Shown piece by piece: positions 23,384 to 33,938 of a DNA stretch of 37,697 bases. Position numbers and translations under genes: made by a program. A model generated the notes under the pieces. The model was not told the origin of the DNA. It saw only the letters and a list, made by a program, of their open reading frames with translations, and searched no databases. The first letter of the stretch is position 1. Each line of letters begins with the position of its first letter. The stretch covers positions 1 to 37,697 of the forward strand of contig JABFXN010000083.1 of assembly GCA_013361705.1 (NCBI GenBank), read 5' to 3'. Origin of the DNA: Acidobacteriaceae bacterium. Lineage in GTDB: Bacteria > Acidobacteriota > Terriglobia > Terriglobales > Acidobacteriaceae.

Positions 23384-24448
23384 ATGTCGTCAAACGGTTT
23401 CCAGCAGCGTACATCGCGGGGGCGAAGCCTCCGTTCTCTTTTCAGCCTATTTTCCAGCGATCTGGCAATCGATTTGGGCACCGCAAACACCCTGGTCTAT
23501 GCCCACGGGAAGGGAATCGTTGTCAACGAGCCCTCCATCGTCGCGATTAACAAGTCGACGGGCGAGGTCGAGGCTGTGGGAAAAGAGGCCAAGGAGATGC
23601 TTGGCCGTACTCCGGGCAACATTGTTGCCATCAAGCCGATGAAAGACGGCGTTATCGCCGATTTCAAGGTGACGGAGAAGATGCTGAACTACTTCATCCA
23701 GAAGGCGCATAACCGCAAGCGCATGGTGCATCCGCGCATCATCATCGGTGTGCCCTCTGAGATCACGCAGGTGGAAAAGCGTGCTGTTGAGGACTCCGCC
23801 TATCGCGCTAAGGCGAGCGAAGTCTACCTGGTCGAACAGGCGATGGTGGCCGCAATCGGTGCAGGTCTGCCGATTACGGAGCCAGGCGGCAACATGGTTG
23901 TGGATATTGGCGGAGGAACCACGGATATCGCGGTGATCTCGCTGGCCGGTATCGTCTACTCGCGCTCGGTCCGCATGGCCGGCAACCAGATGGACGAGTC
24001 GGTGATGAACTACCTCAAGCGCAAGTACAACCTGCTGATCGGCGAGCGTACCGCGGAGCAGATCAAGATGGAGATCGGCTCGGCATATCCGCTGGACAAG
24101 CCCCTGACGATGGAGATCAAGGGCCGCAACCTGATCGAAGGCGTTCCGAAGACCATTTCGATCGATGATTCGGAGATTCGCGAAGCGCTGGGCGAATCGA
24201 TCGCCACGATCATGAACGCTATCCGCGTGGCGCTGGAACGTACGCCGCCGGAGCTGTCCGCCGACATCAGCGACCGCGGTATCGTGCTGACCGGTGGTGG
24301 AGCATTGATCAAGAACCTGGACAAGCGGATCCGCGAGGAGACGGGCCTGCCCGTCTCGATCGCCGACGACCCGCTGGCGTCCGTGGTTCTGGGCACTGGA
24401 AAGATGCTCTCGGACTTCAAGCTGCTGCGTAAGATTTCTATCGACTAG
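23384..24448 (+). CDS. mreB: Rod shape-determining actin homologue MreB
   Basis: MreB forms membrane-bound filaments that guide lateral peptidoglycan synthesis in rod-shaped cells. The 354-residue protein has the actin-fold motifs SSDLAIDLGTANTLVY (phosphate 1), VVDIGGGTTDIAVISLAG (phosphate 2) and GIVLTGGGALIKNLD (adenosine), plus IIIGVPSEITQVEKRAV. The N-terminus carries a basic, amphipathic stretch (GRSLRSLFSLF), comparable to the membrane-anchoring helix of E. coli MreB, after about ten extra residues. The length is otherwise normal. It starts a cluster running mreB-mreC-mreD-mrdA-rodA-rng. A family 1 repeat begins at its stop codon, giving an unusually wide 157-bp gap before mreC. Confidence 0.97.
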   Translation: MSSNGFQQRTSRGRSLRSLFSLFSSDLAIDLGTANTLVYAHGKGIVVNEPSIVAINKSTGEVEAVGKEAKEMLGRTPGNIVAIKPMKDGVIADFKVTEKMLNYFIQKAHNRKRMVHPRIIIGVPSEITQVEKRAVEDSAYRAKASEVYLVEQAMVAAIGAGLPITEPGGNMVVDIGGGTTDIAVISLAGIVYSRSVRMAGNQMDESVMNYLKRKYNLLIGERTAEQIKMEIGSAYPLDKPLTMEIKGRNLIEGVPKTISIDDSEIREALGESIATIMNAIRVALERTPPELSADISDRGIVLTGGGALIKNLDKRIREETGLPVSIADDPLASVVLGTGKMLSDFKLLRKISID

Positions 24449-24563
24449 AAGGATTTTCCCTGTTGCTGGGTATCCCATGAGGGCGCGTGCAGCGGCGTTT
24501 TCATTGAGGAAACGCCCATAGATGCAGAAGCCCTACACTACACCTGCAGGAAAAATGCTTTAG
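24445..24563 (-). repeat. Family 1 palindromic intergenic repeat, copy 4 (inverted, between mreB and mreC)
   Basis: This copy is in the opposite orientation to copies 1-3. It opens CTAGAAGGATTTTCCCTG, overlapping the mreB TAG stop, continues TTGCTGGGTATCCC, and ends GCAGGAAAAATGCTTTAG. The internal hairpin is GGCGTTTTC (24494-24502) with GGAAACGCC (24508-24516), with one G-T wobble. Being palindromic, it can form the same fold in either orientation. It occupies most of the gap within an otherwise tight operon. Confidence 0.85.
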
Positions 24564-24605
24564 TCGAGCTCAAGAGGACGGCCCCTCGGGCTGGGATCTC
24601 ACGTC

Positions 24606-25706
24606 ATGGATGGATTCTTTGCCAGGTATAGAAATGCTCTCGTACTGATTGCCGTGCTGGTGGTGTTCACCATCGGTCTGGCAGTGCAGGTGCGGCGGCC
24701 AGACTATGGCTCGCGTGAGGATGGGAAGCACGTCCGTGTCTTCCGGTACTGGGCCGTGGCCCTGGTCTCTCCCTTCGAGCGTGTGTTCCGTGCGACCGGC
24801 CAGGGCATTCGTGGGATCTGGCACAACTACATCGACTTGCGGGATGTCCGCCGGCAAAACGAGCAATTAAAGAACGATCTAAACCGCATGCGGTTGTACC
24901 AGGCCGCCATGGCGGAGGATGCACGCCAGGGGCAGCGGCTGCAGGCATTACTCGAATTCAAGCAGCAGTACATCGCGAAGACCGTTGCGGCGCAGGTGAT
25001 CGGCACCAGCGGAAGCGAACAGTCGCGCGTGCTGTATATCGACAAGGGCATCGCAGACGGGCTGAAGCCGGATATGGCGGTAATTACGCCGGATGGAATT
25101 GTGGGCAAACTGCGTGACGTCTTTCAGCACTCGGCGCAGGTTCTGCTGATCAGCGATACAACCTCCGGCGCCGGTGTCGTGCTGGAGACCACACGAATCC
25201 GCGGCGTGCTTCGCGGTACGACCGATGGACGGCTCCGTATTCTGGATGTGCTGCCCGACAGCCGCATCAAGCCTGGTGAACCCGTGCTGACCAGCGGCGG
25301 CGACCAGGTCTTCCCCCGTGGCCTGAAGGCGGGCGTGGTGGAAAGCATTGGCCAGGATCGCAACTATGCACTGGTGACGGTGAAGCCCACGGCGAATCTC
25401 GCGCGGCTTGAAGAAGTCCTGGTCGTCATGGAGAAGGGTGCGGTCGCTCCGGAGCAGGTAGCTGCCACCGAGAATGAGCCGGAGACCGGAGCGCGCGGAG
25501 AGCATCTACCCCAGTTGAAGCCCGAGACTCCCGAAGAAGCGGCAAAGAATGCGAAGGAAGCTCCTCTGCCGCGGCCCACGCCGGCTGTCCGCCAGGACAC
25601 GTACAGTCCCGGTGCTACGCCGTCGGCAGCAACGCTGACCCCGGGTGCGCGTCATGACAATGCTGCCGCCGCTCCGTCTACAGAAGCAGGCGGTGATCAG
25701 CACTAA
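24606..25706 (+). CDS. mreC: Rod shape-determining protein MreC
   Basis: MreC is a bitopic inner-membrane protein whose periplasmic domain activates the PBP2-RodA peptidoglycan synthase. The 366-residue product has one N-terminal membrane helix (ALVLIAVLVVFTIGLAV, residues about 11-27), a coiled coil at about 75-120 (RRQNEQLKNDLNRMRLYQAA) and the beta-rich MreC core (VIGTSGSEQSRVLYIDKG, MAVITPDGIVGKL, DTTSGAGVVLE, VLTSGGDQVFPRGLKAGVV). A low-complexity Pro/Ala/Glu-rich tail of about 80 residues follows, longer than in most MreC proteins, and is probably disordered. The TAA stop overlaps the mreD ATG by one base (TAATG), indicating translational coupling. No clear ribosome site precedes ATG 24606. 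Confidence 0.94.
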   Translation: MDGFFARYRNALVLIAVLVVFTIGLAVQVRRPDYGSREDGKHVRVFRYWAVALVSPFERVFRATGQGIRGIWHNYIDLRDVRRQNEQLKNDLNRMRLYQAAMAEDARQGQRLQALLEFKQQYIAKTVAAQVIGTSGSEQSRVLYIDKGIADGLKPDMAVITPDGIVGKLRDVFQHSAQVLLISDTTSGAGVVLETTRIRGVLRGTTDGRLRILDVLPDSRIKPGEPVLTSGGDQVFPRGLKAGVVESIGQDRNYALVTVKPTANLARLEEVLVVMEKGAVAPEQVAATENEPETGARGEHLPQLKPETPEEAAKNAKEAPLPRPTPAVRQDTYSPGATPSAATLTPGARHDNAAAAPSTEAGGDQH

Positions 25707-26236
25707 TGACCGCCCTGGGTAGGATGTACAGCTCCCGACGGGAGATGGATGAGCACGTCTTCCATCCTGCGATCAGCCTTCTGGTGCCGCTGGTTGCCGT
25801 GTTTGCCGGGGCGTATCTGCCGAAGCTGGCGCCGTGGTTGATGATTCTGGACCTCCCGCTGGTGGTAGTGATCTTTTTCTCGGTAGCGCGCCGTAGCCCG
25901 ATCTCGGGCGTGATGACGGGGGCTCTGGTTGGCGTGTTGCAGGACCTGCTGCTGAACCAGCCGATCGGCATCAACGGCATGGTTAAGGCTGTTGTGGGAT
26001 ATGTGGCGGCGTCGATCAGCCTGCGGGTGGATGTGGATGCGCTGGCAACGCGCGTCGTGATGAACTTCAGCTTCTGCCTCTTGCAGAGCCTGATGTTGCT
26101 GGGCATCTATCAGTGGCTATTACGGGACGCGAATGTGCAGACGCGCTGGCTGCATGAGTTGTTGCGTGCCGGAGTGAATACGGTAGTGGCGATCCCGCTG
26201 TTTTTCCTTCTGGACTACGCGAAACAGCGCGCATAG
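25706..26236 (+). CDS. mreD: Rod shape-determining protein MreD
   Basis: This 176-residue inner-membrane protein is almost entirely hydrophobic, with five or six segments, for example ISLLVPLVAVFAGAYL, LMILDLPLVVVIFFSV, GVMTGALVGVLQDLLL and NTVVAIPLFFLLDYA. The sequence GALVGVLQDLLLNQPIGING fits the MreD family, and so do its size and position directly after mreC. MreD is part of the elongasome membrane complex; its exact activity is unknown. The start codon shares a base with the mreC stop. The family is poorly conserved, so the call rests on topology and context as much as on sequence. Confidence 0.9.
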   Translation: MTALGRMYSSRREMDEHVFHPAISLLVPLVAVFAGAYLPKLAPWLMILDLPLVVVIFFSVARRSPISGVMTGALVGVLQDLLLNQPIGINGMVKAVVGYVAASISLRVDVDALATRVVMNFSFCLLQSLMLLGIYQWLLRDANVQTRWLHELLRAGVNTVVAIPLFFLLDYAKQRA

Positions 26237-26267
26237 TAGGAAGAGATAGAGATCTGGAGCGGAAGCG

Positions 26268-28175
26268 ATGATAGAGGACGAGAAGCTAACAGCCCGCGAG
26301 GAGAAGGTCTCCCCGCTGAAGCTGAACTCGGTGCAGTATGTCGTTGCCCTGCTTCTGGTGGTGCTGCTCGCCGGGTTGTGGCGGCTGCAGGTCGTTAGTG
26401 CGGACAACTACCGCGTCCTGGCCGAGCAAAACCGCGTCCGCAAGGTTCCCATCATGGCGCCGCGGGGCAAGATCTTCGATCGCGAAGGCCGCCTGCTGGT
26501 GGACAACTATGCCTCCATCTCCTGCTACCTGCTGCGTGAACCAGCCCGCGACTGGGACGCCGACCTGCCCATGATCGCCCAGGGCCTGCACATGACTGTC
26601 GACCAGATCCAATATGTGCTGCGCCGTTATCAGTTTGCTCCGAAGTACCAGCCGATCCCGCTTAAGCAGGATCTCTCGCCAGATGAGGTCGCGTTTATTG
26701 AGGCGCACCGGAATGAGCTGCCGGAACTGGAGACTCTGGACGAGCAGCGCCGCCTCTATCCAAATGGAGGCTTTGCCGCGCACCTGATCGGGTATGTGGG
26801 TGAGATCAGCGAGAACGACCTGAACAAGGAAAAGTACGCCTTCTATCAGGCCGGCGACGTAGTCGGGAAGTCCGGTGTGGAAGCGACTTACGACGCGGTG
26901 CTGCGCGGCAGGGATGGATCGCGAGATGTGGTGGTCGACAGCCGTGGCCGCGAGGTTGGTCAGCTCGGCCAGGAGGATCCTGTCCCCGGCAAGGATCTCA
27001 GGCTGAGCATCGACCTGGACCTGCAGATGACGGCAGAGAAGGCGATGGAAGGCAAGACTGGAGCCATGGTCGCCATGGATCCTCATACGGGCGAGATTCT
27101 CGCCATGGTCTCCCGCCCCACTTATGATCCGAATCAGTTTGCAGTACGGCTGACGAAGGACTACTGGAACAAGATCCTGAACGATCCCGACCACCCGATG
27201 ATGAATAAGACCATCCAGGCGCAGCTCGCGCCGGGGTCTACGTTCAAGATCATCATGTCCTATGCCGGTCTTGAGGAGGGAGTCGCCCAGGATATGCATG
27301 TGAACTGTGCCGGCGGTGGAACCTTCTTCGGCCACTTCTTTGCCTGCGATAAGCATCACGGTGGTGTCGATATTCAGCACGCGATCCCGTGGAGCTGCGA
27401 TACCTTCTACTACACGCTGGCCGAGCGGCTGCAGATCGATACGATTGCGAAGTATGCCACCTCGGTCGGCATCAGCCAGAAGACGGGCATCGACCTTCCG
27501 GATGAGGCGACAGGCACCATGCCATCGACGGCATGGAAGCTGAAGAACTTTCACGACAAGTGGTATGCCGGTGAGGTGATCTCAGTTGGCATCGGGCAGG
27601 GAGCCGTGCAGGCGTCGCCGATTCAGCTTGCGCGGGCGTTGAGCGGCATTGCCTCAGGCGGAGCTCTCAAGCGCCCACACGTCATCCTGGACGGCCAGGT
27701 TCCACAGGAGTATCAGCAGGCGATTCTGGATACCTATCCCGGCAGCGGCAATAAGCAGATCAGTCTCAAGCCGGAGAACTGGCAGATCATCACTGACGCC
27801 ATGGCGGAGACCACCGTGACCGGAACCGCCGCCGCCGTACATCTTCAGGGGATCGACTTTGCAGGAAAAACCGGCACCGCGCAGGTTGTAAACCACAGTG
27901 CTGGAGCCACCAGCCTGGGTACCGGCAATGCGCGCGCGAATGCATGGTTTGTCGGCATGGCACCGCGTCGCAACCCTGATATCGTGGTGGCCGTTCTGGT
28001 GGAGCATGGCGGCTGGGGTGCCGAAGCTGCCGCTCCGCTTGGTGCGCGGGTTGTCAACGCCTTTGTCGAAAAGCAGCGGAAGAAGGCTGGAAACCTGATC
28101 AAGGTGGCCGAGACTCCGAAACCGGCCACCCCGCTGGAGACTGCCGCGAAGAAAGAAGAGTCTGTTACGAACTAG
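26268..28175 (+). CDS. mrdA: Penicillin-binding protein 2 (elongasome transpeptidase)
   Basis: PBP2 cross-links peptidoglycan during cell elongation together with RodA. The 635-residue protein has one N-terminal membrane helix (VQYVVALLLVVLLAGLW), a pedestal domain (IMAPRGKIFDREGRLLVDN; HLIGYVGEI) and a transpeptidase domain. Catalytic motifs are complete: Ser324 and Lys327 in PGSTFKI, Ser376-Cys-Asp (SCD, the SXN/D motif) and Lys534 in GKTGTAQ. The sequence GAMVAMDPHTGEILAMVSRP is typical of class B enzymes. It follows mreD by 31 bp and precedes rodA. The length is standard. The C-terminal Lys/Glu/Ala-rich tail is short and probably disordered. Confidence 0.96.
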   Translation: MIEDEKLTAREEKVSPLKLNSVQYVVALLLVVLLAGLWRLQVVSADNYRVLAEQNRVRKVPIMAPRGKIFDREGRLLVDNYASISCYLLREPARDWDADLPMIAQGLHMTVDQIQYVLRRYQFAPKYQPIPLKQDLSPDEVAFIEAHRNELPELETLDEQRRLYPNGGFAAHLIGYVGEISENDLNKEKYAFYQAGDVVGKSGVEATYDAVLRGRDGSRDVVVDSRGREVGQLGQEDPVPGKDLRLSIDLDLQMTAEKAMEGKTGAMVAMDPHTGEILAMVSRPTYDPNQFAVRLTKDYWNKILNDPDHPMMNKTIQAQLAPGSTFKIIMSYAGLEEGVAQDMHVNCAGGGTFFGHFFACDKHHGGVDIQHAIPWSCDTFYYTLAERLQIDTIAKYATSVGISQKTGIDLPDEATGTMPSTAWKLKNFHDKWYAGEVISVGIGQGAVQASPIQLARALSGIASGGALKRPHVILDGQVPQEYQQAILDTYPGSGNKQISLKPENWQIITDAMAETTVTGTAAAVHLQGIDFAGKTGTAQVVNHSAGATSLGTGNARANAWFVGMAPRRNPDIVVAVLVEHGGWGAEAAAPLGARVVNAFVEKQRKKAGNLIKVAETPKPATPLETAAKKEESVTN

Positions 28176-28237
28176 TGTGGAGGCTGTTCATTGCCTTCAT
28201 GCTGTCAGATACCCGTTACACTGAAATTGCCTGATCC

Positions 28238-29338
28238 ATGCGCCGTTTTTCTTCGTTCCGTGACTTTGACTGGGTTCTGCTCGGCTTCGTGTTGCTGCTG
28301 AGCGTGATCTCAGTCTTTGAGATCTATTCGGCGACGCTGCACACAAAATTCCATGGCTTTGAGAAGAAGCAGCTCGAGTACCTCGCCGTGGGCCTGGTGC
28401 TGATGTTTATCGTCTCGCTGATCGACTACCACCAGTTGCTGGAGATTGTTCCCTGGGCCTATGGCGCCAGTATTCTTGCGCTTATCGGTGTGGCGGCTGT
28501 GGGCACCAGAGTGCTGGGGGCGAAGCGATGGATCAAGTTCCCCGGCGGCATTCACTTTCAGCCGAGCGAATGGATCAAACTGGTGCTGGTTGTGGCCGTG
28601 GCGCGGTATTTCTGGAGCCTTGGCGGGCGAGATCTGACGTGGAAGGACATCGGCAAGGCCTTCCTCCTGGTGGGCATTCCCATGCTGATGGTGCTGAAGC
28701 AGCCTGATCTGGGAACGGCCCTCACTTACTCGCCGATCCTGATCTGCGGTCTGTTCCTGGGCGGCATCCGGTTCAAGCAGGCGGCCATCCTTATCCTCGG
28801 ATTTCTGCTGCTGGTCGGTGGTGTGTGGAGGACCGGAAAACTGCTGAAGCCCTACCAGAAAGCCCGCCTGACCAACTTCATCAATCCGGACAACGATCCG
28901 AAAGGCTCCGGCTACCAGATCCGCCAGTCTCTGATCGCTGTCGGATCGGGAGGCGTCTGGGGCAAAGGCGCGACGAAGGGGACGCAGACGCAGGGGGACT
29001 TCCTCCCTATTCCCTATACCGACTTCATCTTTGCCGCCTTTTGCGAAGAACATGGGTTTGTGGGCGCCCTGGGAGTACTGCTGCTCTACTTCCTGATCCT
29101 GATGCGCCTGATCCAGAACGCCCAGACGGCTCCGGATCCACCAGGTACGTTCATCGTGATGGGTATCGTGGCGATCATCATCTTCCAGATGGCGGTCAAT
29201 ATCGGCATGGTGATCGGATTCATGCCGGTGACGGGAATTCCGCTGCCGCTGATGAGCTATGGCGGATCGTCGGTGCTATTCACCTTCATGGCGCTGGGGA
29301 TCGTGATGAACGTGCGAATGCGGCGGTTTGTGAACTGA
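28238..29338 (+). CDS. rodA: Peptidoglycan glycosyltransferase RodA
   Basis: RodA is the SEDS-family polymerase that extends glycan strands from lipid II in partnership with PBP2. The 366-residue protein has about ten membrane segments and the family signatures LGAKRWIKFPGGIHFQPSEW (residues about 93-112), LKQPDLGTALTYSPIL with the conserved catalytic Asp, SGYQIRQSLIAVGSGGVWGKG, FIFAAFCEEHGFVG and MPVTGIPLPLMSYGGSSVLF near the C-terminus. The length is typical. It follows mrdA with a 62-bp gap, the usual pairing. No terminator is visible after it; the RNase E/G leader begins within about 60 bp. Confidence 0.96.
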   Translation: MRRFSSFRDFDWVLLGFVLLLSVISVFEIYSATLHTKFHGFEKKQLEYLAVGLVLMFIVSLIDYHQLLEIVPWAYGASILALIGVAAVGTRVLGAKRWIKFPGGIHFQPSEWIKLVLVVAVARYFWSLGGRDLTWKDIGKAFLLVGIPMLMVLKQPDLGTALTYSPILICGLFLGGIRFKQAAILILGFLLLVGGVWRTGKLLKPYQKARLTNFINPDNDPKGSGYQIRQSLIAVGSGGVWGKGATKGTQTQGDFLPIPYTDFIFAAFCEEHGFVGALGVLLLYFLILMRLIQNAQTAPDPPGTFIVMGIVAIIIFQMAVNIGMVIGFMPVTGIPLPLMSYGGSSVLFTFMALGIVMNVRMRRFVN

Positions 29339-29774: not shown

Positions 29775-32700
29775 ATGTCGAAAGAAATTTTTATCTCCTC
29801 AACGCCGCATGAAACGCGGCTGGCCATCGTGGAAAACGAGGCGCTTTCGGAGATCTACTACGAGCGCGAGAACGAATACACTCTCGCCGGCTCCATCTAC
29901 AAAGGCAAAGTGACCCGCGTTTTACCCGGTATGCAGTCGGCCTTTGTCGACATCGGGCTTGAGCGCGATGCCTTCCTCTACATCACCGATTTTCTGGAAG
30001 AGACTCCGGATTCAGAGGAGTTTGACACAGAAGGCAGCGCTACGCCCGTTGAGAATGGCGCCGGTTCCGGAGACCAAAGGGAGCGCGGAGGCCGCCGTCG
30101 TGGCCGTGGACGCCGTGGGCGCGACCGCGGAGAGCGCGGTGGTGAACAGCAGGGCGGGCAGGAGGCTGTTCCAACCGGTGAGACCCTGGTACTTGAGGGT
30201 GGTTTCGGCGAGGAAGAGACCGTTGAGTTTACCGGGTCCGCAGACCGGGGAGAGGGCGAGGAGCGTCCGGCCGAGGATCAGGGCGAAGGTGGCAGCCGCC
30301 GCTGGCGTGGACGTCGTGGCCGCCGCCGTGGCCGTGGCCGTCGTGAAGAGTCGCAGACACTCAGTGGAGAGCCACGCTCTGAGCACGAGTCCGATCCGGT
30401 AGAGTTTGAGCCCGAAGCGCATCCGGCAGCGCAGCCCGAGCCCACAGCCGAAGTAGCCGCCGATCTGGAAGCTCCGTTTATCCTTCCCGGCGAATCGCTC
30501 TCGAAGTATCGCCGCGGGGGGGAACCAGCCGCTGCCGCAGTCGAGGAGAAGTCCGCGTCGGCTGCCCCTGTACTCTCGGGTGTAGCGAAGCCCGCAACGC
30601 TGGTGGAGGTGATCGACACGACCGGCTGGGATGGTGGATTTGCGCTTCCTGGGGAGTCGTTGAGCCGCCGCCGTAGTGCCCCGCAGGCCAGTGCCCCGCA
30701 GGCCGCTGCTCCCGTTGTACCGGTTCCCTCGGTCGTTGAAGAGGTCCCGGTGGTTGCCGAGCAGCCTGCCGAGGTTCTGGGGACGTCGACGGATTTGGAG
30801 TTCGCTCCCGCCGCCGCCGCAGAGGCTCAGGAAGTGGCCCAGGCCAGCCCGGTTGAGGAAGCTGCAGCAGTGGATCAGAAGCCTGAGGAGCCGGTAACGC
30901 CTGCGGAGTATGAGCCCACCGAGGGTTCCGTGTCGTTTCGTGTGGATCCCGGCCAGAGCGAATTTCGTCAGAAGGCGGAGCCGGAGTTTGAAGAAGAGGT
31001 GATGGTTGAGGAGGCTGCGGCGGAGGAGAATTCCGCGGTTGAGCATGCCTTTACCACGCTGCAGCCGACCGGCGAGATGATCTCCGAAGTGGAGACGCCG
31101 GAGGTTCCATCCTCTCCTATCGAGCATGAGGCTGCCGTGCAGTCGGTGACTCTGGCGGAAGCCGAGCATCCGGTAACACCGGTGGAAGCAGCTACGGTCG
31201 AGTCGTCTGTCGTCGAGGCACTGCATGAGGGCGAGTTCGAGGAAGAACTGATCGACGAAGACGAGTACGAGTTCGAGCCTCTGGCAATGCATACGGCCGA
31301 CGAGGAATATCTCGAGGACGACCTGGAAGAGGAGACGCTGGAAGGCGCCGCGGATCTGGGGACGATGCTCCGCGATATGTCCATCGACGAAGCAACACAG
31401 ACTGAGGAAGAAGAAGGGGAAGAGGAGCAGGATGAGCCTCTGATAGAAGGCGAGTTCGAAGAGACGTCTGAGGATGAGGGTTCCCCGGAGGAAGAGACAG
31501 AAGAGGTAGTGGCTGAAGGTGAAGCACAGCCTCGCCGTGAGCGTGGAGGACGGCGCGACCGTCGTGGACGCCCCGGACGAGACCGTGACCGTGGCCGGGA
31601 TCGTGGGCGCGGCGGGCGTGGCCCAAGCCGGGCGTCGATGCAGACCACCAACCTGCCTGCGATCAGCGACCTGCTGAAGCCGGGACAGGAGATCCTGGTG
31701 CAGATTGCCAAGGAGCCGATTGCGAAGAAGGGTGCGCGCATCACCTCACACATCGCTCTTCCCGGCCGCTTCCTGGTCTTTATGCCCACGGTCAACCATG
31801 TGGGTGTTTCCCGCAAGATCTCGAGTGACGATGAGCGCCGCCGCCTCAAGCAGGTACTACTGAGCGAAAAGGCCGAGGCGACCGGCGGGTTTATCGTGCG
31901 TACGGCTGCGGACGGCGCCAGTGAGCAGGAGCTGCGTAGCGATCTCCGCTTCCTTATCAACCTCTGGAACGACATCAAGGGACGGTCGGATTCTTCGAAG
32001 TCGCCTGCACTGATCTATCACGACCTGAACCTGGTAGAGCGCATTTTGCGTGACCAGGTGACGGATAACTTCTCCCATATCTGGGTTGATAACGAGACCG
32101 AGTACGAGCGTGTGTTGCGCTTCCTGCAGCGCTTCGAGCCTTCGCTGATTCGCCGGGTGAAGCTCTACAGCAAGGAGACCCCGCTGTTTGAGCAGTTCGG
32201 TATCTCGGAGGAGATCAACAAGGCGCTGCGTTCGAAGGTATGGCTGAAGTCCGGCGGATCGATCGTGATCAACCAGACCGAGGCTTTGGTGGCCATCGAT
32301 ATCAACACCGGCAAGTACGTTGGTAAGACGGCCCGCCTGGAAGACACCATCGTGAAGACGAACCTCGATGCGATTCCGGAGATCGTGCGGCAGATCCGCC
32401 TGCGCGATCTTGGCGGCATCATCGTGATCGACTTTATCGACATGGATGAGCGTAAGAACCGGCAGAAGGTGCTGACCGCGCTCGAAGAGGAGTTGAAGAA
32501 CGATCGTGCTCCTTCCAAGGTGCTACAGTTCAATGATTTTGGCCTGGTGGCAATCACCCGTAAGCGTGTGAAGCAGTCGCTGGAGCGCACTCTGAGCACG
32601 CAGTGCTCCATCTGCACCGGCACGGGCATGGTGAAGTCACCGGTCACGGTCGCGAACGAGATCTACATCGAGATGCGCAAGATGTATCGCCATATCGAGA

Positions 32701-32855
32701 AGGGCGACATCATGTTGCGTGTGCATCCGGAGGTCGTCAAGCAGTTGAAGAGCAATAATGCAAGCTGGCTGCATGAGATGGAAGAGCTGACGGGCAAGAC
32801 CATCCTGGTGAAGAGCGATCCGAGCCTTCATCCGGAACAGTTCGACATCCACTAG
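29775..32855 (+). CDS. rng: Ribonuclease E/G with a large low-complexity insertion in the S1 domain
   Basis: This single-strand endoribonuclease for rRNA processing and mRNA decay has 1026 residues; RNase G is about 490 and E. coli RNase E about 1060 with its disordered part at the C-terminus. Here the S1 domain begins at about 35 (AGSIYKGKVTRVLPGMQSAF, FLYITDFLEE) and is cut at residue 72 by about 550 residues of acidic low-complexity sequence. This insert holds three Arg/Gly-rich patches (near 101-122, 174-193, 586-621). The S1 domain resumes at about 627 (LPAISDLLKPGQEILVQIAK). The catalytic core follows: VRTAADG, VAIDINTGKYVGK and GGIIVIDFIDMDERKN (the two metal-binding Asp), then the zinc-link CSICTGTG. 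The protein ends soon after the small domain, with no C-terminal scaffold. The first four Arg-rich blocks suggest RNA or ribosome contact. The gene is last in the mre/rod cluster. Confidence 0.95.
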   Translation: MSKEIFISSTPHETRLAIVENEALSEIYYERENEYTLAGSIYKGKVTRVLPGMQSAFVDIGLERDAFLYITDFLEETPDSEEFDTEGSATPVENGAGSGDQRERGGRRRGRGRRGRDRGERGGEQQGGQEAVPTGETLVLEGGFGEEETVEFTGSADRGEGEERPAEDQGEGGSRRWRGRRGRRRGRGRREESQTLSGEPRSEHESDPVEFEPEAHPAAQPEPTAEVAADLEAPFILPGESLSKYRRGGEPAAAAVEEKSASAAPVLSGVAKPATLVEVIDTTGWDGGFALPGESLSRRRSAPQASAPQAAAPVVPVPSVVEEVPVVAEQPAEVLGTSTDLEFAPAAAAEAQEVAQASPVEEAAAVDQKPEEPVTPAEYEPTEGSVSFRVDPGQSEFRQKAEPEFEEEVMVEEAAAEENSAVEHAFTTLQPTGEMISEVETPEVPSSPIEHEAAVQSVTLAEAEHPVTPVEAATVESSVVEALHEGEFEEELIDEDEYEFEPLAMHTADEEYLEDDLEEETLEGAADLGTMLRDMSIDEATQTEEEEGEEEQDEPLIEGEFEETSEDEGSPEEETEEVVAEGEAQPRRERGGRRDRRGRPGRDRDRGRDRGRGGRGPSRASMQTTNLPAISDLLKPGQEILVQIAKEPIAKKGARITSHIALPGRFLVFMPTVNHVGVSRKISSDDERRRLKQVLLSEKAEATGGFIVRTAADGASEQELRSDLRFLINLWNDIKGRSDSSKSPALIYHDLNLVERILRDQVTDNFSHIWVDNETEYERVLRFLQRFEPSLIRRVKLYSKETPLFEQFGISEEINKALRSKVWLKSGGSIVINQTEALVAIDINTGKYVGKTARLEDTIVKTNLDAIPEIVRQIRLRDLGGIIVIDFIDMDERKNRQKVLTALEEELKNDRAPSKVLQFNDFGLVAITRKRVKQSLERTLSTQCSICTGTGMVKSPVTVANEIYIEMRKMYRHIEKGDIMLRVHPEVVKQLKSNNASWLHEMEELTGKTILVKSDPSLHPEQFDIH

Positions 32856-32905: not shown

Positions 32906-33014
32906 TTGCAACGAATCCATTTGTCGTCAAAGAGCGTCCTACACAACAACCGGGAAAAACCGGTGTCTGAACAGGCTGAGGGCGGTACCCCCGTCCTTTT
33001 TGAACAAGGAGCGT

Positions 33015-33938
33015 ATGTACATGCTGATGAGCACTGAGTTTACCGGCCGGCGCATGGCGCGGATCATAGGTTTATTTGCCTTGGCGGCTGGTTCATTGGT
33101 TGCAAAGGCGCAAAGTGCGAGCGAACCGAAGCTGGATCTTACTCCGACTCTCCCTTCGCTCAATGAATACCTGCACGACACGACGCCGTCAGCGTCTTAC
33201 AGTTCGTCGGTCGTTGCTTCGGTAGAACCGGAGATGAACTTCTCCAGCGAGATGCAGCCACCACCGCGCCGCCAGTACGGCCGTCCGCGCTATAACGACC
33301 GGAATCATAATCCTGACGGATCGAACCGGTACACCTTTATGGTGGGCGGAGGTTTCGTTTCGCCTGTCGGTTCCACAAGCAACTATCAGACGTTGGGCTG
33401 GAAGATTGCTGTGGGCGGCGGAGTGAACTTCAACAAGTACTTCGGTGTGCTGCTGCAGTACGACTATGACCGGATGAATATCCCGAGCTACATCCTGCGG
33501 AAGATGATCTCGGATTATTCGGCGATCGGATTCGATGCCAGCGGTCTGGATGGCAATACGCATCTCTGGTCGATTACGCTGAACCCGATTCTTACCTTCA
33601 TGCAGAATGACTCTTCCAGTGCTTATGTTACGGGCGGTGGCGGTTTCTACCGGAAGGTTACGAACTTTACCTTGCCTCAGGTCGGCTATTACTGCGACTA
33701 TTTCTACGGTTGCTACCCAGTTCAATCCAACCAGACCTTCGATCACTACTCGAATAACGCTGGCGGTGTAAATATCGGTCTGGGCTTTACGCACAAGCTG
33801 TCTCACTACAACAGCCAGAAGCTGTTTGCCGAAGCGCGTTATACGTGGGTCGACAATCAGCCAAATAACAACATCTACTACACCCCGAACAACTACCGTA
33901 CGAGCTATATTCCGGTAACGTTTGGCTTGCGCTGGTAA
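33015..33938 (+). CDS. Outer-membrane beta-barrel protein, function unknown
   Basis: This 307-residue protein has a signal peptide (MARIIGLFALAAGSLVAKAQ, cleaved near AQS), a short Pro/Ser-rich linker and a C-terminal region of about 210 residues with alternating hydrophobic and aromatic residues typical of an 8-stranded barrel. Examples are RYTFMVGGGFVSPVG, WKIAVGGGVNFNKYFGVLLQ, SAYVTGGGGFYRKV and KLFAEARYTWVDN, with the terminal strand ending in an aromatic residue (SYIPVTFGLRW). It resembles the OmpA-barrel-like group common in acidobacteria; no specific activity can be assigned. AAGGAG at 33005-33010 decides the start at ATG 33015 over an upstream TTG at 33000. It has its own terminator and appears monocistronic. 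Confidence 0.85.
   Translation: MYMLMSTEFTGRRMARIIGLFALAAGSLVAKAQSASEPKLDLTPTLPSLNEYLHDTTPSASYSSSVVASVEPEMNFSSEMQPPPRRQYGRPRYNDRNHNPDGSNRYTFMVGGGFVSPVGSTSNYQTLGWKIAVGGGVNFNKYFGVLLQYDYDRMNIPSYILRKMISDYSAIGFDASGLDGNTHLWSITLNPILTFMQNDSSSAYVTGGGGFYRKVTNFTLPQVGYYCDYFYGCYPVQSNQTFDHYSNNAGGVNIGLGFTHKLSHYNSQKLFAEARYTWVDNQPNNNIYYTPNNYRTSYIPVTFGLRW

Follow-up and report, generated by a model that had tools for sequence, protein, structure and literature searches.

The window analyzed here, a stretch of 37,697 nucleotides (positions 1 to 37,697 of contig JABFXN010000083.1, assembly GCA_013361705.1, from an Acidobacteriaceae bacterium of the class Terriglobia), carries a whole gene for an endoribonuclease of the RNase E/G family, most likely of the RNase G type, in which the S1 RNA-binding domain is interrupted by 556 residues of predicted disordered sequence. 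The gene (29775..32855, on the forward strand, as are all of its features given below) was recognized from its open reading frame (ORF) and from profile matches, starts with ATG and encodes 1026 amino acids. Its product comprises a first part of the S1 fold with the N-terminal strands (residues 1–74; 29775..29996), an acidic, charge-blocked S1 insert (residues 73–628; 29991..31658), the second part of the S1 fold (residues 629–661; 31659..31757), the catalytic core PF10150 (residues 662–932; 31758..32570) and the RNase E/G thioredoxin-like C-terminal domain PF20833 (residues 943–1025; 32601..32849). The last two domains were delimited with Pfam, and the S1 parts with matches to PDB chains (phmmer for the first part) and an AlphaFold2 model.

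The score of PF10150 (342.8 bits against a curated cut-off of 25.5) places the protein in the RNase E/G family, and the NCBIfam RNaseEG subfamily model is also passed (481.4 bits; cut-off 325.95). The RNase G equivalog NF008689 is the top scorer of the five NCBIfam models listed for the protein, at 489 bits, which is under its cut-off of 594. The thioredoxin-like domain extends to residue 1025 of 1026, which leaves no room for a C-terminal tail, and the long disordered C-terminal half by which RNase E is recognized is missing; a first-pass annotation of this DNA had likewise described a complete catalytic core with no tail.

The interruption falls within the S1 domain. Residues 4–73 align with the RNase E of Escherichia coli and of Caulobacter crescentus (4OXP), the matches ending at 71–73, and the similarity is picked up again at residues 625–630 and continues into the catalytic core, in agreement with the break at about residue 72 and the resumption at about 628 that had been read by the first-pass annotation. 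The Pfam S1 profile alone reaches 13.2 bits, under its 22-bit cut-off; the S1 domain ahead of the core was identified through the matches of both halves to RNase E chains in PDB and through the strands of the model. Measured with the same anchors, the S1 gap of the window protein spans 556 residues, compared with 16 and 19 in the E. coli enzymes RNase E and RNase G, respectively.

In the AlphaFold2 model, built from 79 aligned proteins, the S1 strands 41–50, 55–59 and 66–69 of the first part and 639–646 and 655–657 of the second sit in blocks with a mean confidence (predicted local distance difference test, pLDDT) of at least 92, and nearly all of residues 85–618 have a pLDDT below 50. A second model, of a relative with a 307-residue insert (L139), has the same S1 strands flanking a low-confidence insert, with a helix (71–94) that runs from the S1 into the insert. 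A Foldseek search retrieved the RNase E of E. coli (E 1.2e-34 for the best match) together with the S1/5'-sensor fragment of Caulobacter; the whole-model template-modeling scores were at most 0.28 among 24 matches with E <0.001, because half of the model is disordered. On the basis of secondary structure, confidence and homology, both halves are predicted to pack as one S1 domain, with the insert located between strands 3 and 4, so that the model upholds the earlier proposal of an insert inside a single S1 fold.

The insert consists of 25% Asp plus Glu and contains 49 Arg but only 5 Lys. The three Arg/Gly-rich patches that had been described within this acidic sequence are found at residues 102–123 (30078..30143), 175–190 (30297..30344; including RRWRGRRGRR) and 587–616 (31533..31622), the third shortly before the S1 resumes. 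Charges are strongly clustered (z 11.6; 0 of 1000 shuffles as high), a charge-block pattern of the kind used to recognize the scaffolds of bacterial ribonucleoprotein bodies (BR-bodies), and the clustering exceeds all 100 shuffles in 51 of the 52 other Terriglobia inserts. In composition and charge clustering the inserts resemble the tails found at the C terminus of other RNase E copies in Acidobacteriota, which bears out the likeness to degradosome scaffold material suggested at first pass. Codon comparison indicates that the insert is really translated, because the differences to the closest relative are mostly synonymous: among seven relatives tried, six of them comparable, the closest comparable one (L019, which holds only part of the insert) differs synonymously at 41 and nonsynonymously at 18 of 466 aligned insert codons, and at 26 and 1, respectively, of 398 aligned core codons. 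The corresponding values for another relative (L029) are 107 and 47 in the insert and 83 and 7 in the core. In more distant relatives nonsynonymous differences dominate in the insert (125 synonymous and 257 nonsynonymous in L031; 96 and 205 in L014), and therefore the insert as a whole is only loosely constrained.

An insert at this S1 site occurs in all 53 Terriglobia proteins measured (the window protein and those of 52 distinct loci), with lengths of 307–874 residues in proteins of 777 to 1344 amino acids. In the sample of relatives, 56 of 61 genomes (the window's own included) had a match and 35 relatives were taken in full; among the genomes left out are six with short or broken frames of 210–659 amino acids (G004, G011, G015, G039, G042, and G048) and two with cut or split matches (G020 and G032). 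Class membership of the loci was inferred from kinship to named relatives and, for L031–L043, partly from the tree. L112, a duplicate of L037, was kept out of the motif counts but is in the RodA count given below; L044 is a fragment without S1 and L134 runs off its contig. An insert-bearing locus from a metagenome-assembled genome labelled Rhodanobacteraceae (L043) branches within the Acidobacteriaceae of the first tree described below and probably represents a mis-binned contig.

Other acidobacterial families, outside the class, were represented by 59 loci hand-picked from the matches listed with longer frames favoured, so that the following proportions are not rates: 29 have S1 inserts of 56–547 residues. 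The remaining loci have an S1 loop of ordinary size, without a tail in 15 of them and with a C-terminal tail of 156–313 residues in 15 others. None of these 59 loci combines an insert with a C-terminal tail. Among 63 scorable loci mostly from other phyla (L047–L110), which were chosen by core similarity and are not a survey of those phyla, the largest S1 gap is 62. A further candidate class, with an N-terminal scaffold encoded in long frames 5' of the S1 (L045, L046, L165, and L166), was rejected: a start codon adjoins the S1, the upstream frames are read as out-of-frame GC-rich sequence and a RodA homologue is found in each locus. A bare RNase G-type copy (L175) has a possible N-terminal extension of about 100 residues, Arg-rich and then acidic.

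A search for conserved short motifs within the insert, proposed at first pass, was productive. A repeated LPGES in the window protein was noticed by eye before patterns were counted, and in an unguided count gapped four-letter patterns from LPGE...KY top the list, being present in 52–53 of the 53 Terriglobia inserts as against about 0–1 in shuffles. The motif, LPGES[LI]xKY, is found in a relaxed form in 53/53 and in its strict form in 46/53 of these inserts (with LPGE in all 53 of them, K in 52 and Y in 50), usually in the context P-[IF]-[VIL]-L-P-G-E-S-[LI]-[SA]-K-Y-R; it is absent from the 29 other-class inserts and from the shuffled sets. The first copy lies 104–323 residues into the insert, and there are 66 full copies over the 53 inserts, at least two copies of a looser pattern being present in 29 of them. 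In the window protein the motif reads LPGESLSKY (residues 237–245; 30483..30509) and is followed by a degenerate second copy, LPGESLSRR (residues 291–299; 30645..30671). These nine residues are kept while the surrounding insert sequence varies widely, and the motif codons differ between species, which places the constraint on the peptide.

At the DNA level, a degenerate pattern of the motif has a single match in the window's genome and is present in 129 of 151 Terriglobia genomes, the reversed control pattern being found in one genome. In a sample of the phylum it occurs in 32 of 34 Terriglobia vs. 1 of 263 other Acidobacteriota, and in 41 genomes compared by eye every match lies no more than about 2.5 kb 5' of the catalytic domain, on the same contig and strand. 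In the window model residues 236–245 are the only run of at least five residues within 85–618 outside the listed segments with pLDDT <50; in the L139 model the longest stretch above the lowest confidence band within 98–369 (177–192) is also at the motif. Weaker blocks of the Terriglobia inserts include RRWRGRR (WRGR in 27/53) and a GFPESK[YF]-like sequence (16/53). A different motif, FER[VI]x[DE], is present in 11 of the 15 other-family inserts of at least 250 residues (19 copies in all, from loci L161–L163, L176–L178, L191–L193, L198, and L210) and in none of the 14 shorter ones or of the 53 Terriglobia inserts.

The insert-bearing enzyme is most likely an RNase G-type copy, nearer RNase G than RNase E, because of its position in trees, its copy number and its neighborhood. 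In a first tree of 116 cores (without L112, L093, and L134, and with L044 lacking a gap measure) the 78 rows whose insert reaches 100 residues or more lie on one side of one branch (support 93/92), adjoining three rows with 56–98 residues and one bare row, and the 16 tailed rows, including E. coli RNase E, lie on one side of another branch (100/100). A second tree was built from a selection of 75 rows, including 16 from other phyla but not the second copies L252–L254 (divergent, 25–40% identity) and L255 (no S1 match). Here one group (100/99) unites the acidobacterial insert rows and bare rows with 11 second-copy rows, and a 94/92 split separates this group from E. coli RNase E and the other tailed rows; the RNase G (rng) of E. 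coli, a tail-less enzyme that differs from the window protein in its S1 gap of 19 vs. 556 residues, is on the insert group's side of this split. The 23 rows with inserts of at least 50 residues group together (90/50).

Copy number was counted among the matches listed. The genomes of all 15 C-tailed loci have at least two RNase E/G genes, and the second copies (14 of 15 scorable, three of them divergent) have gaps of -1 to 47 residues, tails of at most 52 and no insert. One RNase E/G gene per genome was counted for each of the 29 other-class loci that carry an insert and for 33 of the 34 Terriglobia genomes of the phylum sample; the 34th (G317) has two, on contigs C26 and C71 and with frames of 1040 and 1251 amino acids, each with the motif DNA pattern upstream of the core, and the one retrieved carries an insert. 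As to neighborhood, an mreB-mreC-mreD-PBP2-like-rodA cluster (23384..29338, forward strand; Pfam) lies 5' of the RNase gene in the window. A RodA homologue is found in 44/53 Terriglobia loci (the duplicate L112 counted, the window not), 18/29 other insert rows, 14/20 bare rows (including E. coli RNase G, which has none), 5/15 second copies, with their short flanks, and 0/16 tailed rows (among them E. coli RNase E); all of these are lower bounds, as flank lengths differ between loci.

The RNase E/G label of the first-pass annotation is thus right as to family and is refined toward RNase G. A simple move of the RNase E tail, on the other hand, does not fit, since the insert enzymes group with bare RNase G-type copies, apart from a C-tailed RNase E type that is present in other lineages of the phylum. 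The latter (for instance L168, L174, and L186) comes from the same phylum and most of its tails are acidic with Arg-rich blocks, but unlike the window protein it has its 156–313 additional residues after the core, an ordinary S1 loop and a second RNase E/G copy in the genome.

Inserts in S1 have been reported in alpha-proteobacteria and plants (about 50–150 residues; PMC4245959), and that of the window is therefore not a new kind. The Caulobacter insert lies at the same S1 site, the matches stopping at residue 92 and resuming at 167 with 74 residues between (71 and 630 in the window protein); it is charged and predicted to be disordered, and an RNase E fragment holding it binds RhlB (PMC4245959). 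The idea of an acidobacterial rearrangement stands as regards the lineage, but the arrangement is not unique to it. The differences lie in length (556 residues in the window and up to 874 in relatives, against the 50–150 reported) and in the C-terminal scaffold, which Caulobacter RNase E also has and the window protein lacks. The S1 insert of plant chloroplast RNase E, comparable by description, is reported to be much shorter and important for activity, which is lowered by its deletion (PMC4245959). The scaffold of E. coli RNase E resembles the window insert in being large and disordered, with Arg-rich parts and short motifs, and in showing charge clustering as well (z 5.0 vs. 11.6 in the window), but it follows the catalytic half, where the window protein has no such region.

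The best explanation of these data, to which a probability of roughly 0.55 is given, is that the window protein is an RNase G-type endoribonuclease with its S1 domain expanded into an internal degradosome scaffold, in which the motif docks a partner of the RNA decay machinery. Judged from homology and the model, the S1, the 5'-sensor and the DNase I-like and thioredoxin-like domains are intact. A long arm, predicted to be disordered, emerges between S1 strands 3 and 4, beside the expected RNA entry site, its position being shown by the model and the Caulobacter homologue and that of the RNA site by homology; the Arg/Gly patches could hold RNA close to the channel, alternation of acidic and basic blocks may favor self-association or form an electrostatic gate, and LPGES[LI]xKY would dock one decay partner. 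Candidates for the latter are PNPase, a DEAD-box helicase and RNase J: a profile search of the window's genome found PNPase, TIGR00649 (which we take to be RNase J) and DEAD-domain proteins, the best of which is a 461-amino acid frame taken for an RNA helicase. Short motifs in disordered RNase E regions are known to bind PNPase or helicases (PMC12489471, PMC11964227). With putative RNA-holding patches and a putative docking motif in the S1 loop, the single Terriglobia enzyme would fill the role of the C-tailed RNase E of E. coli and of other acidobacterial lineages. More tentative is the generalization that Terriglobia as a class build a degradosome on RNase G by means of this scaffold, with a class-wide partner for the motif, and that other lineages of the same architecture use FER[VI]xD.

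Among the alternatives, it is unlikely that the insert is mainly an autoregulatory gate. Its acidic blocks would then occupy the RNA channel or its surroundings as an RNA mimic that has to be displaced, and the conserved motif would bind to its own enzyme. In favor of such a gate, in the Caulobacter structure an insert helix with acidic side chains protrudes into the expected RNA site (PMC4245959), the window insert is strongly acidic and the helix 71–94 predicted for L139 would extend the S1 into the insert. The Arg/Gly patches, however, would favor RNA binding, and in neither model does the motif reach the high confidence expected of a packed position. Less probable still is an arm that guides RNA or forms condensates without a dedicated protein partner, comparable to the BR-body tail of RNase E in alpha-proteobacteria. 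The charge clustering of the window insert would suit such an arm, given that the charged blocks of Caulobacter RNase E have been proposed to drive phase separation into condensates (PMC10412687) and that Arg-rich motifs of the Pseudomonas aeruginosa enzyme bind RNA (PMC11964227); condensation driven by charge, however, needs no strict sequence motif, and the WRGR and GFPESK-type blocks are less conserved than LPGES[LI]xKY. Neutral expansion of a tolerant surface loop by replication slippage, with no specific role, would account for the nearly threefold spread in length within the class, the many gaps, the repetitive Arg/Gly and Glu tracts and a nonsynonymous change far above that of the core, but is improbable in view of an insert in every Terriglobia protein measured, of its recurrent charge clustering and of a nine-residue motif kept in all 53 amid variable surroundings and never met in shuffles.

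Several observations weigh against the scaffold and docking interpretation preferred here. The insert is fast-evolving and of low complexity, so that much of it may be spacer; its disorder was inferred from low pLDDT, and the rise in pLDDT at the motif may merely mirror conservation of the latter in the alignment. Charge clustering exceeds all 100 shuffles in just 19 of the 29 other-class inserts. The strict DNA pattern of the motif is missing from 22 of the 151 Terriglobia genomes, and one genome (G398) has a second match far from the first. Support for the insert clade is moderate. A lone RNase E/G gene, among the matches listed, is also seen in 12 of the 15 genomes that were sampled for bare loci; lack of RNase E alone therefore does not demand an insert. 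RNase Y gave no match over the cut-off in the window's genome, which is 91% complete, so that absences from it are not firm. Finally, the partner and the RNA-binding and condensate roles are predictions made by analogy.

No report of the Terriglobia S1 insert was found in the open-access literature among the matches listed, in searches that did not use the letters of the motif as a query. Its length of up to 874 residues, its RNase G-type background and the class-wide motif appear to be new, as do, as far as the literature shows, the lack of a C-terminal scaffold and the mutual exclusion of insert and tail in the phylum. A survey of 2011 lists an RNase E/G of 511 amino acids and no predicted degradosome for Fibrobacteres/Acidobacteria (PMC3071783), unlike the Terriglobia proteins described here, which carry scaffold-like material elsewhere than in the classical tail. 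If the motif does dock a partner, degradosome scaffolds would have evolved at a second site of the protein too, and on the other of the two paralogues, and a peptide of nine residues would offer a direct route to that partner in a large, little-studied lineage of soil bacteria.

Some minor features were also recorded. WW occurs in 6 of 16 C-terminal tails (L159, L168, L169, L190, L204, and L206) and resembles the GWW motif that the RNase E of Caulobacter uses to bind PNPase (PMC12489471); MPAA is found in 5 of the 16. Directly 3' of the RNase gene in the window lies an ORF of 312 amino acids (33000–33938, forward strand) with no Pfam match at E 1e-5, which to the eye looks like an outer-membrane beta-barrel protein. 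Opposite the insert, the minus strand contains two long ORFs (30012–31292 and 30968–31978) that are probably by-products of the biased codons of the insert.

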